Source: Candidatus Palauibacter rhopaloidicola | GTDB lineage: Bacteria; Gemmatimonadota; Gemmatimonadetes; Palauibacterales; Palauibacteraceae | Direction of reading: 5' to 3' | Assembly (NCBI GenBank): GCA_026914155.1 | Contig: JAPPGH010000017.1 | Location: 1 to 64,000, forward strand | DNA length: 64,000 nt | Shown: positions 53,270 through 58,094 of the stretch, one piece after another | Numbering within the stretch: position 1 is the first letter of the stretch | Layout of the letters: the number at the start of each line of letters is the position of its first letter | Made by a program: the position numbers and the translations under genes | Notes under the pieces: generated by a model | Seen by the model: only the letters and a program-made list of their open reading frames with translations | What the model was told of the DNA's origin: nothing | Databases searched by the model: none

Positions 53270-53692
53270 TCAGATCTCTGCCCAGGGATCCAGCACTTCG
53301 ATCCCGGTGCCCTCGAAATCCCTCACGTTTCGCGTCGCCAGGGCAGCGCCTCGGCAACGAGTGACGGCCGCGATCTGACAGTCGAATTGGCTGATCGGGC
53401 GTCCCGCGGTCCGTCGCTCGGCCGTGATCTCCGCGTACGCCCTCGCCGCGGAACCGTCGAACGGCAGCACGCGGTTCGTGAAGAAGTCCGCAAAGAACCG
53501 ATCCGCCGCATCCGCCAGATCCCGTCGGCGTCTGCCGGCCGGCAGGATGGCGATGCCGGTTCGAATCTCAGCTTCCGTGATCGCAGTAACGAAGAGATCT
53601 CGCCTCGCACGGGCGTCGACCCATGCAAGCACTTCAGGTTGCGGGACGCCGCGCATCAACTCGGAGACGACATTCGTGTCGAGGACGAACAT
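53270..53692 (-). CDS. VapC/FitB-type PIN-domain toxin
   Basis: 140 aa. PIN-domain acidic residues are visible: MFVLDTNVVSEL (Asp5), ITEAEIRTGI (Glu40/Glu42) and QFDCQIAAV (Asp104), followed by NVRDFEGTGIEVLDPW. This matches FitB-like ribonuclease toxins. The antitoxin gene ends 9 bases upstream, so the module is complete and in the usual order. All catalytic acidic residues are present, so the toxin is probably active. Confidence 0.92.
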   Translation of the reverse strand: MFVLDTNVVSELMRGVPQPEVLAWVDARARRDLFVTAITEAEIRTGIAILPAGRRRRDLADAADRFFADFFTNRVLPFDGSAARAYAEITAERRTAGRPISQFDCQIAAVTRCRGAALATRNVRDFEGTGIEVLDPWAEI

Positions 53693-53701
53693 CGGTGCGA
53701 C

Positions 53702-53947
53702 TCAGTCGAACCGTGGCGATTCGCGCATGGGCTCGCGGGGAGGAATCTCGAGCTCCACGCCACCCAGGGGCGCGAACAGCTCATGGATCGCAGTCCCCAG
53801 GCCCTTCGCGGGCATCTTCTCGTGGCCGACTGCCGTGCGGAGAATCACCCGCGCTTCCTCCTCCATGGAACGGTCGTTCTTCGCCGCCCTGACTCGAAGC
53901 CGGTGTTTCACCCCGTCGCCCAGATTCCGAATGGTGATGCTCGCCAC
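53702..53947 (-). CDS. FitA-type ribbon-helix-helix antitoxin
   Basis: 81 aa from GTG 53947. The N-terminal ASITIRNLGDGVKHRLRVRAAKNDRSMEEEARVILRTAV is the RHH DNA-binding pattern of FitA-like antitoxins. The C-terminal tail (AIHELFAPLGGVELEIPPREPMRESPRFD) would wrap the toxin. The open frame continues upstream to 54025, but that part is AT-richer promoter DNA. A promoter with a palindrome is seen at 53988-54016. Confidence 0.88.
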   Translation of the reverse strand: MASITIRNLGDGVKHRLRVRAAKNDRSMEEEARVILRTAVGHEKMPAKGLGTAIHELFAPLGGVELEIPPREPMRESPRFD

Positions 53948-53987
53948 GTCTCTACCGCCGTCCCGTTGAGGTTTCGCGCAAAGATAG

Positions 53988-54016
53988 AATTTATCGACTG
54001 ATCTCGTTGATATCAA
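53988..54016 (-). promoter_or_regulatory. Promoter and operator of the FitAB-type module
   Basis: Minus strand TTGATA (54016-54011), 17-base spacer, TAAATT (53993-53988). The palindrome TTGATATCAA (54007-54016) overlaps the -35 and is a natural site for the RHH antitoxin. This stretch is much more AT-rich than its surroundings. Confidence 0.65.
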
Positions 54017-54076
54017 TGCTATCATCCGAGGCAGAACCGCTCTTGCTGGAGAACGGACGACCAGCTTCGTAGGCGT

Positions 54077-54736
54077 CTACGAATCGGACGGGGGGATGGC
54101 GGCGACGACTTCGGCAGGTTCGCCTCGCACGGTGTAGTCGGGGTCGGCGGAGGCGTAGACGATGGTTCCCGAGCGGTCGATGACGAAGGTGGACGTGAGC
54201 GGGAGTTCCCACGACTCGTCGCCGTTGAAGCGGGCGAGGTCGATGCCGAGTCCGTCGCGGTACAGGGTTCGCAGGTCGCCGTCGACGGTGAACGTCAGGC
54301 CGTAGTCACGCGCCACGCCGAGCCCGAAGTCGAGCAGGACGTCGAACTCGATGCCGTCTTCCTCGATCCAGCCGCGAGCGAACTCCGGAAGTTGCGGGGA
54401 GAGCGTGACGAGACGGGCCCCCTTGGCCGTGATTTCGGGGAGAACCGACTGAAGAGCAGCCTGCTCCTCTCGGCAATAGGGTCACCAGCGCCCGCGGAAG
54501 AAGCTGAGCACCACGGGCCCGCGCTTGAGGAGCGTCGCGAGCCGGACCGTGGGGCCGGCGACGCTCGGCCGCGCAAACAAGGGCGCCCGGTCGCCCACTC
54601 CGGGGACTCGGTCGAGGATGCCGGACCTTCGCAGCGCCTCCGTGCCCGCGGCCATGACCGCCGTCGCGGCGGCGGGACGCACAGCCTCCTTCTCGACGCG
54701 GATCGCGGCGAGTCGCCGGTTGAGCGGCCCGCTCAC
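54077..54736 (-). CDS. Peroxiredoxin-like (AhpC/TSA) protein with in-frame UGA at the active-site Cys: candidate selenoprotein
   Basis: 219 aa if UGA is read as selenocysteine. It starts at GTG 54736, overlapping the carboxylesterase stop by 4 bases. Codon 85 (54484-54482) is TGA. The flanking residues FFRGRW-[U]-PYCREEQAAL match the family motif FFRGxWCPYCxxEL, with the TGA exactly at the first Cys. After the TGA the same frame continues to a normal TAG, with all family blocks: LVTLSPQLPEF, FDVLLDFGLGVARDYGL, FNGDESWELPLTSTFVIDRSGTIVYASADPDYTVRGEPAEVVAAI. A hairpin fitting bacterial SECIS rules begins 12 bases after the UGA. It should reduce peroxides or disulfides. The alternative is a TGC to TGA nonsense mutation or read error. 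Confidence 0.78.
54451..54469 (-). promoter_or_regulatory. Candidate bacterial SECIS element
   Basis: In the mRNA, GAGGAGCA-GGC-UGCUCUUC forms an 8-bp stem (one G-U pair) with triloop GGC. The loop starts 21 bases after the UGA, inside the 16-37 base range known for bacterial SECIS, and begins with the required G. The apex GCA-GGC-UGC closely resembles the E. coli fdhF apex GCA-GGUC-UGC. Confidence 0.65.
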
Positions 54737-56367
54737 GGCATCCCTGCGCGCAGGCGCCGTTCCCAGAAGTCGAGCTGGACGGTGCGAAGTTCGCTCCCCG
54801 CCTCGACCATCGGCCCCAGCACGAGATGGGCCTCGGAGTCGCGCGTGTAGGCCGGCCACGGAGGCAGCCCGGCGCCGTTCGGGTCGCCGTTCGCGGCGAA
54901 GTTGACCCAGTAGGAGGACATCGTCTGCGCCAACTGGCGGTCCAACGCTTCCCGTTCGCCGGGACCGACATTGCCGAAGGCGTACACGATCTCGGCCGCG
55001 TGGTACGACTTGAGATACTCCTTCGCGGGTCCGGGCGGCTCGTGCGTGAAGTAGTACAGCCAGGCGCCCGCGCCGGCGGCTTCCGACGCCCGCGCCCACG
55101 TCCGCATCTGGATGCCGAACAGGGCGTCGCCGCGGCTTCGCATGAAGGCATCGAAGATCTCGCCCTCCTCCTCCACGGGATAGGCGGCGTCGAAGCTCTC
55201 CGCCTCGTCGCCGACGCGGCCGGCCACCCACTCCCGCCACGCGTCGAGCGTCTCCGGCACGGATCTCGGGGACGAGAGAGAGGTCATCTCATCCGCGTTG
55301 AACCCGACGAGCACCGGGACGTTGTTGTGCGTGCCCTCGGTGAACGCCGTCGTCACGTCCGTCGGCAACACCCAGCCGTCCACGTTCTGCGCCGTCCTGA
55401 AGCCGCGTCCGGCCGGCCTGTCGAGCCCCGCCATCACGCTTGCGGCGGAGAGCCGCCGCATCTCCTCCAGGGTCTCCGCCCCGAGCGCGCCGAGGAACGC
55501 CGCTCCGATCTCCTCGGCGGAGCGTCCGCCCTCCGGCGCGTCCGAAAGGCGCATCATGGGACCGAACCGTCCTCCGCTCTGTCCGATGGCGCGGTGAAAG
55601 AGTCCCGCCGCCAGCGGCGTCGCCATCAGCGTGTTCACGCTCCACGAGCCGGCCGACTCGCCGAAGATCGTTACGCGCTCCGGGTCTCCGCCGAACCCCG
55701 CGATGTTGTCCCGTACCCACTCGAGCGCGGCGACCTGGTCGAGGACGCCGTAGTTGCCCGACGATCCGTGCTCGGACTCAGCGGTGAGGAGCGGGTGCGC
55801 GAGGTAGCCGAACGGTCCGAGCCGGTAGTTGATTGTGACGACGACGGCGCCCTTCTCCGCCAGCGCCGTCCCGTCGTAGATACCGGTGGAGCCGGACCCG
55901 CGCGTGAGCGCGCCCCCGTGGATCCACACCATGACCGGCCGCCGCTCCGAGGCGTCGGCGGCCCCGGTCCACACGTTCAGGTACAGGCAGTCCTCCGCCG
56001 TCGGGGCGGGAGGACCTCCGAAGAAGGAGCCGGCGCCGTAGGGGGTCTGCATGCACTCCGGACCGAAGCTCTGCGCCCGGAGCGTCCGCTGCCCCCACGC
56101 CTCGACCGGCTGGGGCGGCTTCCAGCGCCGGTCCCCCACGGGCGGAGCCGCGAACGGGATTCCCTTGTAGGAGCGGATTCCGTCGACGAGGGCGCCCTCG
56201 ACGTTCCCGCTGGCGGTCTCGACGCGGGTGTCCTGCGCGTTAAGCGCCGTCGCGAATCCGCCGCCGGCCACGGTGACGAGCAGGACGCGGGCCAACGCGC
56301 CGGCCAACGTGCGAGCCAATGTGCGAGCCAGTGCGCGGGCCGACTGAGTGCGGGAGTCACGACGCAT
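54733..56367 (-). CDS. Type B carboxylesterase, exported
   Basis: 544 aa from ATG 56367 (GGAGA upstream). The signal peptide is long and unusual, built from Ala-Arg-Leu repeats (ALARTLARTLAGALARVLL), ending TALNAQ. Family blocks are GIPFAAPPVGDRRW, EDCLYLNVW, VMVWIHGGALTRGSG and the nucleophile elbow FGESAGSWSV, with a Glu in VGFNADEMTS and a C-terminal His (SYHAAEIVYAFGN). It hydrolyses carboxylic esters in the periplasm. The peroxiredoxin-like gene starts over its stop. Confidence 0.93.
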   Translation of the reverse strand: MRRDSRTQSARALARTLARTLAGALARVLLVTVAGGGFATALNAQDTRVETASGNVEGALVDGIRSYKGIPFAAPPVGDRRWKPPQPVEAWGQRTLRAQSFGPECMQTPYGAGSFFGGPPAPTAEDCLYLNVWTGAADASERRPVMVWIHGGALTRGSGSTGIYDGTALAEKGAVVVTINYRLGPFGYLAHPLLTAESEHGSSGNYGVLDQVAALEWVRDNIAGFGGDPERVTIFGESAGSWSVNTLMATPLAAGLFHRAIGQSGGRFGPMMRLSDAPEGGRSAEEIGAAFLGALGAETLEEMRRLSAASVMAGLDRPAGRGFRTAQNVDGWVLPTDVTTAFTEGTHNNVPVLVGFNADEMTSLSSPRSVPETLDAWREWVAGRVGDEAESFDAAYPVEEEGEIFDAFMRSRGDALFGIQMRTWARASEAAGAGAWLYYFTHEPPGPAKEYLKSYHAAEIVYAFGNVGPGEREALDRQLAQTMSSYWVNFAANGDPNGAGLPPWPAYTRDSEAHLVLGPMVEAGSELRTVQLDFWERRLRAGMP

Positions 56368-56381
56368 GCGATTCTCCGGAG

Positions 56382-56723
56382 TCAGGAGGGAGGCGAGGAG
56401 CTGGCGGGGGGCGGCATCTCCCCGTCCCAGCGGAAGCGCTTGAGCGAGATGCGTCCCCACTTGTCGAATTCCACCCCTTCGTTCGCCAGCAACTGGTACT
56501 GGATCATCTCGGAGTACGAGTCGCCACGGGGGCTGATCTCGCCGCGCGCGTTGATCACCCGATGCCACGGGAGCGGCCGGTCGGAGGCATAGAGCGCGTA
56601 ACCCACGAGCCGGGCCTGTCCACCGAGTCCCGCGAGTTGCGCGACCTGCCCGTAGGTGGCGACGCGGCCGGCGGGAATCCGGGCGACGACGTTGCAGATC
56701 CGCTCGTGGAGGTCCGAAGCCAT
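56382..56723 (-). CDS. Alkyltransferase-like (ATL) protein, Cys replaced by Trp
   Basis: 113 aa, the length of ATL proteins. RIPAGRVATYGQVAQLAG and the active-site block LPWHRVINARGEIS match O6-alkylguanine-DNA alkyltransferase, but PCHRV has become PWHRV (Trp53), which defines ATLs. ATLs bind O6-alkylguanine and mark it for nucleotide excision repair without transferring the group. It is the first gene before the carboxylesterase (14-base gap), an unusual partner. Confidence 0.93.
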   Translation of the reverse strand: MASDLHERICNVVARIPAGRVATYGQVAQLAGLGGQARLVGYALYASDRPLPWHRVINARGEISPRGDSYSEMIQYQLLANEGVEFDKWGRISLKRFRWDGEMPPPASSSPPS

Positions 56724-56807: not shown

Positions 56808-58094
56808 TCAGCCCGCGGGTGGGCTCGCGACCTTCCCGGCGAAGAGGATGGTGCCTGAGAGGCGCTCCCGGATGAAGAACAGGAACGGACGGTCGGCCCG
56901 AACCACCTGACCGGCGCTCTCAACCACCGTGACCACGGTGGCGGCGGCTGCCTCGGTACCCTCTTCGTTGACCTCGACCCAGGACTTCTGCTTCACGCTG
57001 GAGATCCAAAGGCCTCCGGCCGGCGAGAGTCTTGTGAGATTGGCCCGGCCATCGAACGCGTCGACCATGCCAAGCGCGCTAAGATCGTCGTTCAACGTGC
57101 GCTCGTAGGCCATCCGAAAGCGCGGGAGGAAGAGCGTAACGTCGGTCTCGCGGAAGCTGTCGGCGATATCCTCCCATTGCGCCGCGTCGAGCGACGCAGC
57201 GAGTTCGTCCACGCTCACGCCCGGCGTTGGAAGGAGGACCGTCATCGAGAACGCGCTGCCCCCGTACGGCAGGTCCACGGCCTGGAATCGGTCGCTCTCC
57301 TGATAGGGCAGGTCCCTGCGCAGGGTCATGAGTGGCAAGGTCTGCGTGGATCCGTCGTCCAGATGGAAAGGCTCGGTTCGCGTGTCGGACGGATCGAACT
57401 GGAACGTCCACGGAGCCTTGAAGTAGATCGCGTTGATCAGATACATGACGACGTTGCCGGGAATTGCCGCGGGAACAATGTTTTCGATTCGGCCGTTCGT
57501 CGCGGCCTTGACCCAGTCGTTGATCCGGACGGACGCCGAAGGATTCGCGAAGTCGAGTTCCGCCACCTCGGCTTCGAAGCTCCGGCGCACGGCGGTCAGG
57601 AAGTCCGCATGCACCGGGAAGCCCTGCCGAGTCCACACCGAGTTTCCGACTGCCGTCTCGACGGCCGGGTCGAGGCCGACGAGGAGCTCCATCAGTGACG
57701 CGTAGGCGGTGTTGACCTCGTCCTCGGCGAGGGCCCCGAATCCCAGCACGTCACGCATCTGGCTCCAGGTCTCCCCCGCAGCCCCGTTCATGGTCATCCC
57801 AAGCGCCATGGACGCCGAGAAAGGCGACAGGAACAGATTGTCGCCGGGGTGGTTGGCCTGCGCGAGGAGGCGGAAGGCGAACCGGTTGCCCGCCCCGATG
57901 ATCTCGACTTCCGCGGCGCTCAAGGCACGCGGAAGCCGGGTGATCTCGTCCACGCCCCCGGACGGACCCGCGGGCGATTCCCCGCACCCCGCGGCGGCGA
58001 GCAGGAGAACGGTCCGCACGCCAATGAACCGGAAGCGGCGCGCGCCGGATCGCGCTCCAGGGCACCCGGATGCCGATGTTCTCGCCTCGGTCAT
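56808..58094 (-). CDS. Serpin-family lipoprotein
   Basis: 428 aa with lipobox AAAGC. Serpin landmarks are NLFLSPFSASMALGMTMNGAAGETWSQM, IYFKAPWTFQFDPSDT, and the hinge EVNEEGTEAAAATVV; RPFLFFIRERLSGTILFAGKV closes the C-terminus. The hinge is the inhibitory type (small residues P12-P9). Counting from Glu P17 puts Ser at P1 and Ala at P1', suggesting an elastase- or subtilisin-like target. It should trap serine or cysteine proteases at the cell surface. It is divergent from the CocE gene at 58256. Confidence 0.92.
   Translation of the reverse strand: MTEARTSASGCPGARSGARRFRFIGVRTVLLLAAAGCGESPAGPSGGVDEITRLPRALSAAEVEIIGAGNRFAFRLLAQANHPGDNLFLSPFSASMALGMTMNGAAGETWSQMRDVLGFGALAEDEVNTAYASLMELLVGLDPAVETAVGNSVWTRQGFPVHADFLTAVRRSFEAEVAELDFANPSASVRINDWVKAATNGRIENIVPAAIPGNVVMYLINAIYFKAPWTFQFDPSDTRTEPFHLDDGSTQTLPLMTLRRDLPYQESDRFQAVDLPYGGSAFSMTVLLPTPGVSVDELAASLDAAQWEDIADSFRETDVTLFLPRFRMAYERTLNDDLSALGMVDAFDGRANLTRLSPAGGLWISSVKQKSWVEVNEEGTEAAAATVVTVVESAGQVVRADRPFLFFIRERLSGTILFAGKVASPPAG

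Follow-up and report, generated by a model that had tools for sequence, protein, structure and literature searches.

The window, a stretch of 64,000 nucleotides that derives from a Gemmatimonadota bacterium near Candidatus Palauibacter, carries on its minus strand a frame for a 219-residue AhpC-TSA protein with a single in-frame TGA (Table 1). When this TGA (54484-54482, followed by the codons CCC TAT TGC) is read as U, one open frame runs from a GTG start (54736-54734) through ...VVLSFFRGRWUPYCREEQ... to its TAG end, with RGRWUPYC as the context of the motif. The earlier note on this DNA had placed the TGA at the first Cys of a WCPYC motif and had predicted that gene callers would split the gene. 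Aligned homologues from other phyla do read TGC or TGT at that codon, and the frame does break into separate ORFs under the standard code, so that standard gene prediction could be expected to overlook the enzyme in this lineage. The best Pfam match of the protein is PF00578 (AhpC-TSA; residues 47-194, E 2.7e-24); it spans the UGA and, together with the UxxC motif, assigns the protein to the Prx-like UxxC group. An NCBIfam search of the protein gave six matches, none of them over its cut-off, and the SelL-related redox protein family NF040769, with 31.3 bits against a cut-off of 120, does not include it. Likewise, an Rfam search of 54300-54600 returned nothing over the gathering score, and its four weak matches, the best of them to an SAH riboswitch (19.4 bits versus 37), were set aside as chance.

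Table 1. Features of the Prx-like locus, in coordinates of the window
Feature	Coordinates	Strand	Evidence
Predicted Prx-like selenoprotein CDS, 219 residues, GTG start, TAG stop, one in-frame UGA	54077..54736	-	frame, Pfam, orthologues
UGA codon, putative Sec85, residue 1 of UPYC	54482..54484	-	codon alignment, phylum loci
TGC codon, Cys88, presumed resolving cysteine of UxxC	54473..54475	-	Cys codon in 97 of 98 loci
SECIS-like hairpin, 8 bp, GGC loop, loop 20 nt after UGA	54451..54469	-	folding, recoding, covariation
Carboxylesterase-like gene (sequence impression), upstream, same strand	54733..56568	-	ORF list, loci comparison

The carboxylesterase-like gene ends with a TGA (54735-54733) and overlaps the start of the Prx-like gene by four bases. 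This overlap, to which the earlier note had drawn attention, is real at the window locus but is not a general feature, being found in four of the 13 loci, window included, that have the upstream gene among L019-L037. Within flanks of up to about 1.5 kb, the carboxylesterase-like gene lies directly upstream in 13 of these 19 loci and in none of six others, and its absence from the remaining six and from all six others rules it out as an obligate partner. The two genes are possibly co-transcribed in the closest relatives. Elsewhere on the minus strand, two small adjoining ORFs downstream of the Prx-like gene (53270-54025) have the look of an antitoxin and a PIN-type toxin, and an ORF at 56808-58094 has that of a serpin-type protease inhibitor, all three being impressions from sequence.

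The codon aligned to the window TGA could be read in 98 of 99 loci, 19 from the family and 80 from wider relatives, counting the window itself as well as loci that stand in both collections; the locus left out (L036) lies on a contig that ends before residue 85. The alignment of homologues that had been proposed as a check yields TGA in 31 loci, TGC in 48 and TGT in 19, and all 67 homologues with TGC or TGT come from records titled as other phyla. Since the 80 wider loci are the best 80 of 204 relatives, and one of the two scan patterns contains a Cys codon, this sample is uneven. At the position of Cys88, the one locus without a Cys codon has GAT. Within the family, 33 of 35 genomes match the Prx-like protein at E <= 0.001. 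In the genus, 15 of the 17 genomes, the source genome among them, have a full-length orthologue with one TGA; of the other two, one (G029) has a copy that ends at a contig edge before the codon and one (G028) gives a weak match only. The TGA is also carried by the copies of two genomes from a second genus and by a truncated one in a third. Among the relatives with names, Candidatus Palauibacter denitrificans is 95% identical and Ca. P. poriticola 91%, which puts the window close to Palauibacter. Of 298 sampled genomes of the phylum, 36 gave matches at E <= 1e-40, and all 37 matches contain one TGA; the search profile was built from Sec forms only, and Cys forms could thus fall below this cut-off. 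The TGA stands at residue 85 in 29 of 29 fetched phylum loci (28 of 28 without the window), of which 16 repeat sequences of the earlier 98 loci and 13, comprising nine distinct sequences, do not. One might read the TGA as a nonsense mutation or a sequencing error in a pseudogene or an ordinary Cys enzyme, given that a single base parts TGA from TGC or TGT and that homologues in other phyla carry the latter codons, but its recurrence in these phylum loci and genus orthologues, and the high protein identity both before and after it, where the earlier note had already seen coding similarity, make such an accident extremely improbable.

The genome contains all four genes, selA, selB, selD and tRNA-Sec, for which a search had been suggested. 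Its assembly comprises 63 contigs and is 95.76% complete and 6.11% contaminated. The tRNA-Sec gene (79.7 bits, cut-off 47) is the sole one of 11 matches over the cut-off and bears a TCA anticodon according to ARAGORN; SelB (369.7 bits, cut-off 242.25) is encoded on the same contig, and SelA (500.7 bits, cut-off 267.9) and SelD (369.3 bits, cut-off 125, with one in-frame TGA) complete the set. The earlier note had regarded the absence of selB and tRNA-Sec as grounds for abandoning its reading; both are present. More generally, 33 of the 35 family genomes have SelB over the cut-off (the exceptions being G003 and G009), and 33 have tRNA-Sec (the exceptions being G009 and G022). The level of contamination counts against our interpretation; cleaner relatives, though, show the same picture.

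The SECIS-like hairpin, GAGGAGCA-GGC-UGCUCUUC, has a stability of -9.2 kcal/mol as computed with our own code. The bacterial SECIS model, as outlined in PMC13188914, has a loop of 3-9 nt, an upper stem of 4-16 bp, an MFE <= -7.5 and a G in loop positions 1-2, at 16-37 nt from the UGA. In our own implementation of this rule the window hairpin agrees with the model in every respect, which bears out the stem-loop with GGC apex at SECIS spacing that had been described before. Taken alone, the hairpin is weak evidence for Sec, as the recoding controls show, but it is conserved with paired changes. Under a strict rule demanding a contiguous stem, 227 of 5000 synonymous recodings pass, 129 of these matching the observed hairpin in stability, and 16 of 18 distinct Sec sequences pass versus one of 67 Cys sequences (60 nt each). 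A looser folded rule that allows bulges, applied to a later set of 27 distinct Sec and 67 Cys sequences (54 nt each), is passed by 18 Sec sequences, seven Cys sequences and 169 of 600 recodings, and hence discriminates poorly. The Sec sequences that fail, two of 18 under the strict rule and nine of 27 under the folded one, also count against our interpretation. The hairpin alone was consequently rejected as proof of Sec on the basis of the synonymous recodings.

A position-specific core, consisting of G first in the loop and four pairs below the closing pair, is found in all 27 distinct Sec sequences, a count that holds by construction because the core was defined after viewing all of them; the informative counts are those for the 67 Cys sequences, none of which has it, and for the recodings, where it appears in 607 of 20000. 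The Cys homologues are mostly from Acidobacteriota and their proteins differ in residues at the hairpin region too, so that the contrast between Sec and Cys forms is partly one of different residues there. The 3' arm includes an Ala codon that is GCT in every one of the 27 distinct Sec sequences; among the 67 Cys sequences, 59 encode Ala at this position but one has GCT. In nine window ORFs, GCT makes up 27 of the 565 Ala codons. In the covariation count, made on 18 of the 27 Sec sequences, 93.8% of the cells are paired and three pairs have changed on both sides. The covariation score (0.237, versus 0.029-0.068 for slid pairings) was reached by none of 500 shuffles, the number of pairs with two-sided changes by 34 and the number of pair types by 13. 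Across the window, 323 TGA codons are open on both sides (at least 40 open codons before and at least 30 after); seven of them are coding-like on both sides by thresholds of our own setting, 49 have a downstream hairpin that passes the rule, and only the one at 54484-54482 has both. The hairpin alone not being rare, it is conservation that carries the case for Sec.

Decoding of the UGA as some residue other than Sec, by general recoding or by plain read-through, likewise has very little to recommend it: read-through alone would also conserve the downstream frame, but the UGA falls exactly on the first Cys of the CxxC of homologues, the stem shows paired changes and the genome has the four Sec genes. 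General recoding was rejected on the evidence of one gene, the overlapping upstream gene, which stops at a TGA; UGA thus seems not to be generally recoded. The UGA at codon 85 almost certainly encodes Sec, and we infer that Sec is inserted there in the living cell. With the ribosome at this codon, SelB carrying Sec-tRNA(UCA) would bind the hairpin just downstream, and Sec would be incorporated in place of the end of translation. As a whole, including this proposed mode of decoding and a redox role for the product, the gene is very probably a selenoprotein of the Prx-like UxxC kind. The earlier observation is thereby confirmed, and its interpretation as a selenoprotein gene supported.

An AlphaFold model of the protein (pLDDT 96.1, pTM 0.92) places residue 85 directly before helix 86-97. 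The 27-row alignment behind it uses only part of the 80 loci; it is without L070, which has a stop in the upstream part of its match, and L069, dropped without need, and L060 was trimmed before its own stop. In the predicted thioredoxin/peroxiredoxin fold, Sec85 would immediately precede the helix after the central strand and lie one turn from Cys88. From this position Sec85 would most likely attack a disulfide or a hydroperoxide, Cys88 would resolve the intermediate to give a selenenylsulfide, and the enzyme would then be recycled by a thiol reductant of the cell. A thiol-disulfide or peroxide redox role of the UxxC type appears likely. The alternative that merits most attention accepts Sec and sees in the enzyme mainly a PrxQ/AhpE-type classical peroxidase rather than a thiol-disulfide oxidoreductase. 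It draws on PF00578 as the best Pfam match and on Foldseek, where the closest solved folds are the peroxiredoxins Bcp4, BcpB, Bcp1 and AhpE and the 50 nearest folds listed are peroxiredoxins (Bcp/PrxQ, AhpE and Prx6-like) and ResA, at 16-24% identity. ResA, however, a thiol-disulfide oxidoreductase, also ranks in the top ten by fold and comes first among the profile matches to solved structures, and the motif W-U-P-Y-C resembles the thioredoxin type. The canonical active site of peroxiredoxins is PxxxTxxC, classical members having a Thr three residues before the catalytic residue. The window protein departs from it, with Gly82 at -3 from Sec85, a residue invariant in the 27-row alignment, and this absence of the Thr weakens a classical peroxidase role. 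We therefore regard a chiefly classical peroxidase as a serious contender that is nonetheless the less probable of the two, and favor the UxxC redox role.

Selenocysteine is already known in this protein family, and the window gene is one of a familiar type. Prx-like UxxC selenoproteins were known by 2005, with 22 sequences, 21 of them UXXC, in the Sargasso Sea set (PMC1088965); the Global Ocean Sampling data gave 225 'Prx-like 1' sequences of pfam00578 with UxxC (PMC2398784), a table in PMC5029168 has a Prx-like row with the numbers 28 and 32, and a 2026 catalogue speaks of a 'Prx-like thiol:disulfide oxidoreductase' that is 'predicted with high confidence' (PMC13188914). Going by these sources as far as they describe the group, the window protein shares with it PF00578, Sec as first residue of UxxC, marine occurrence and many Cys homologues (PMC1088965, PMC2398784, PMC13188914), and it differs, in a comparison by description only, in its lineage, Gemmatimonadota related to Palauibacter. 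It appears to fit these published selenoproteins, which are themselves predicted, and its enzymatic role is one that we infer. The Cys-containing WCPYC/WCPFC homologues of the AhpC-TSA family (mostly Acidobacteriota and Pseudomonadota) are 34-51% identical to it, but have TGC or TGT in place of the TGA and, in all 67 cases, a region without the hairpin core. Classical Sec peroxiredoxins, as characterized in the catalogue (PMC13188914), likewise combine PF00578 with Sec at the catalytic position; their motif is TxxU, as opposed to UxxC with Gly at -3 in the window protein. A literature search on Gemmatimonadota and Palauibacter, judged by title and start of abstract, found no study on the selenoproteins of the phylum, and in the accessible part of a paper on Palauibacterales (PMC10469786) the string 'selen' occurs once, in an author name.

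Within the Gemmatimonadota, the Sec genes are accompanied by at least one selenoprotein gene with good support, and the few Cys forms in the phylum sample offer a testable case of Sec retention. According to PMC10469786, members of the Palauibacterales are mainly salt-related and facultatively aerobic. In the Gemmatimonadota one might expect Sec to be lost easily. A stronger proposal is that the enzyme became fixed as a selenoprotein in this phylum, through an old change from Cys to Sec and a hairpin kept across several families with no return to Cys. A quick tree of 94 sequences, with long branches, contains a branch with an SH-aLRT of 100 that separates 24 Gemmatimonadota Sec sequences from the rest, and Sec may have had a single origin; on the same tree the Sec label needs three changes, L034, L035 and L037 falling outside the main Sec clade. 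The Sec sequences being related, their agreement is not independent. Among 11 fetched loci from the weaker, stop-free matches in the family (L038-L048), one in another genus (L038; genome G015, C12:50331-50855, minus strand) has TGC at the aligned codon, in WCPFC; it is about 30% identical to the window protein and either an orthologue or a paralogue. Another (L048) has TGC in WCIPC, and the other nine, of other Prx types, have Ser or Thr codons there. The occurrence of the WCPFC form within the family lowers the odds of fixation, which we consider rather unlikely.

The source genome holds further candidates. A second Prx-like gene (L133; C6:203313-203711, minus strand), whose product has a lipoprotein-like N-terminus, carries an in-frame TGA within FFYRGHWUPYC and the hairpin GCAGCUC-GGA-GAGCUGC 21 nt after it; matches of this type with one TGA are found in 15 of the 17 genus genomes, the place of the TGA having been examined in the source genome only. 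In a Prx-family gene (L139; C57:225462-225857, minus strand) the in-frame TGA lies in RTRGUTVQM, a TxxU motif like that of classical Sec peroxiredoxins; no hairpin there passed the strict rule, and a 6-bp stem with an 8-nt loop is predicted. The SelD gene itself (L016; C7:90616-91542, minus strand) has its in-frame TGA in HGAGUACK, and a hairpin with -15.7 kcal/mol comes after it.
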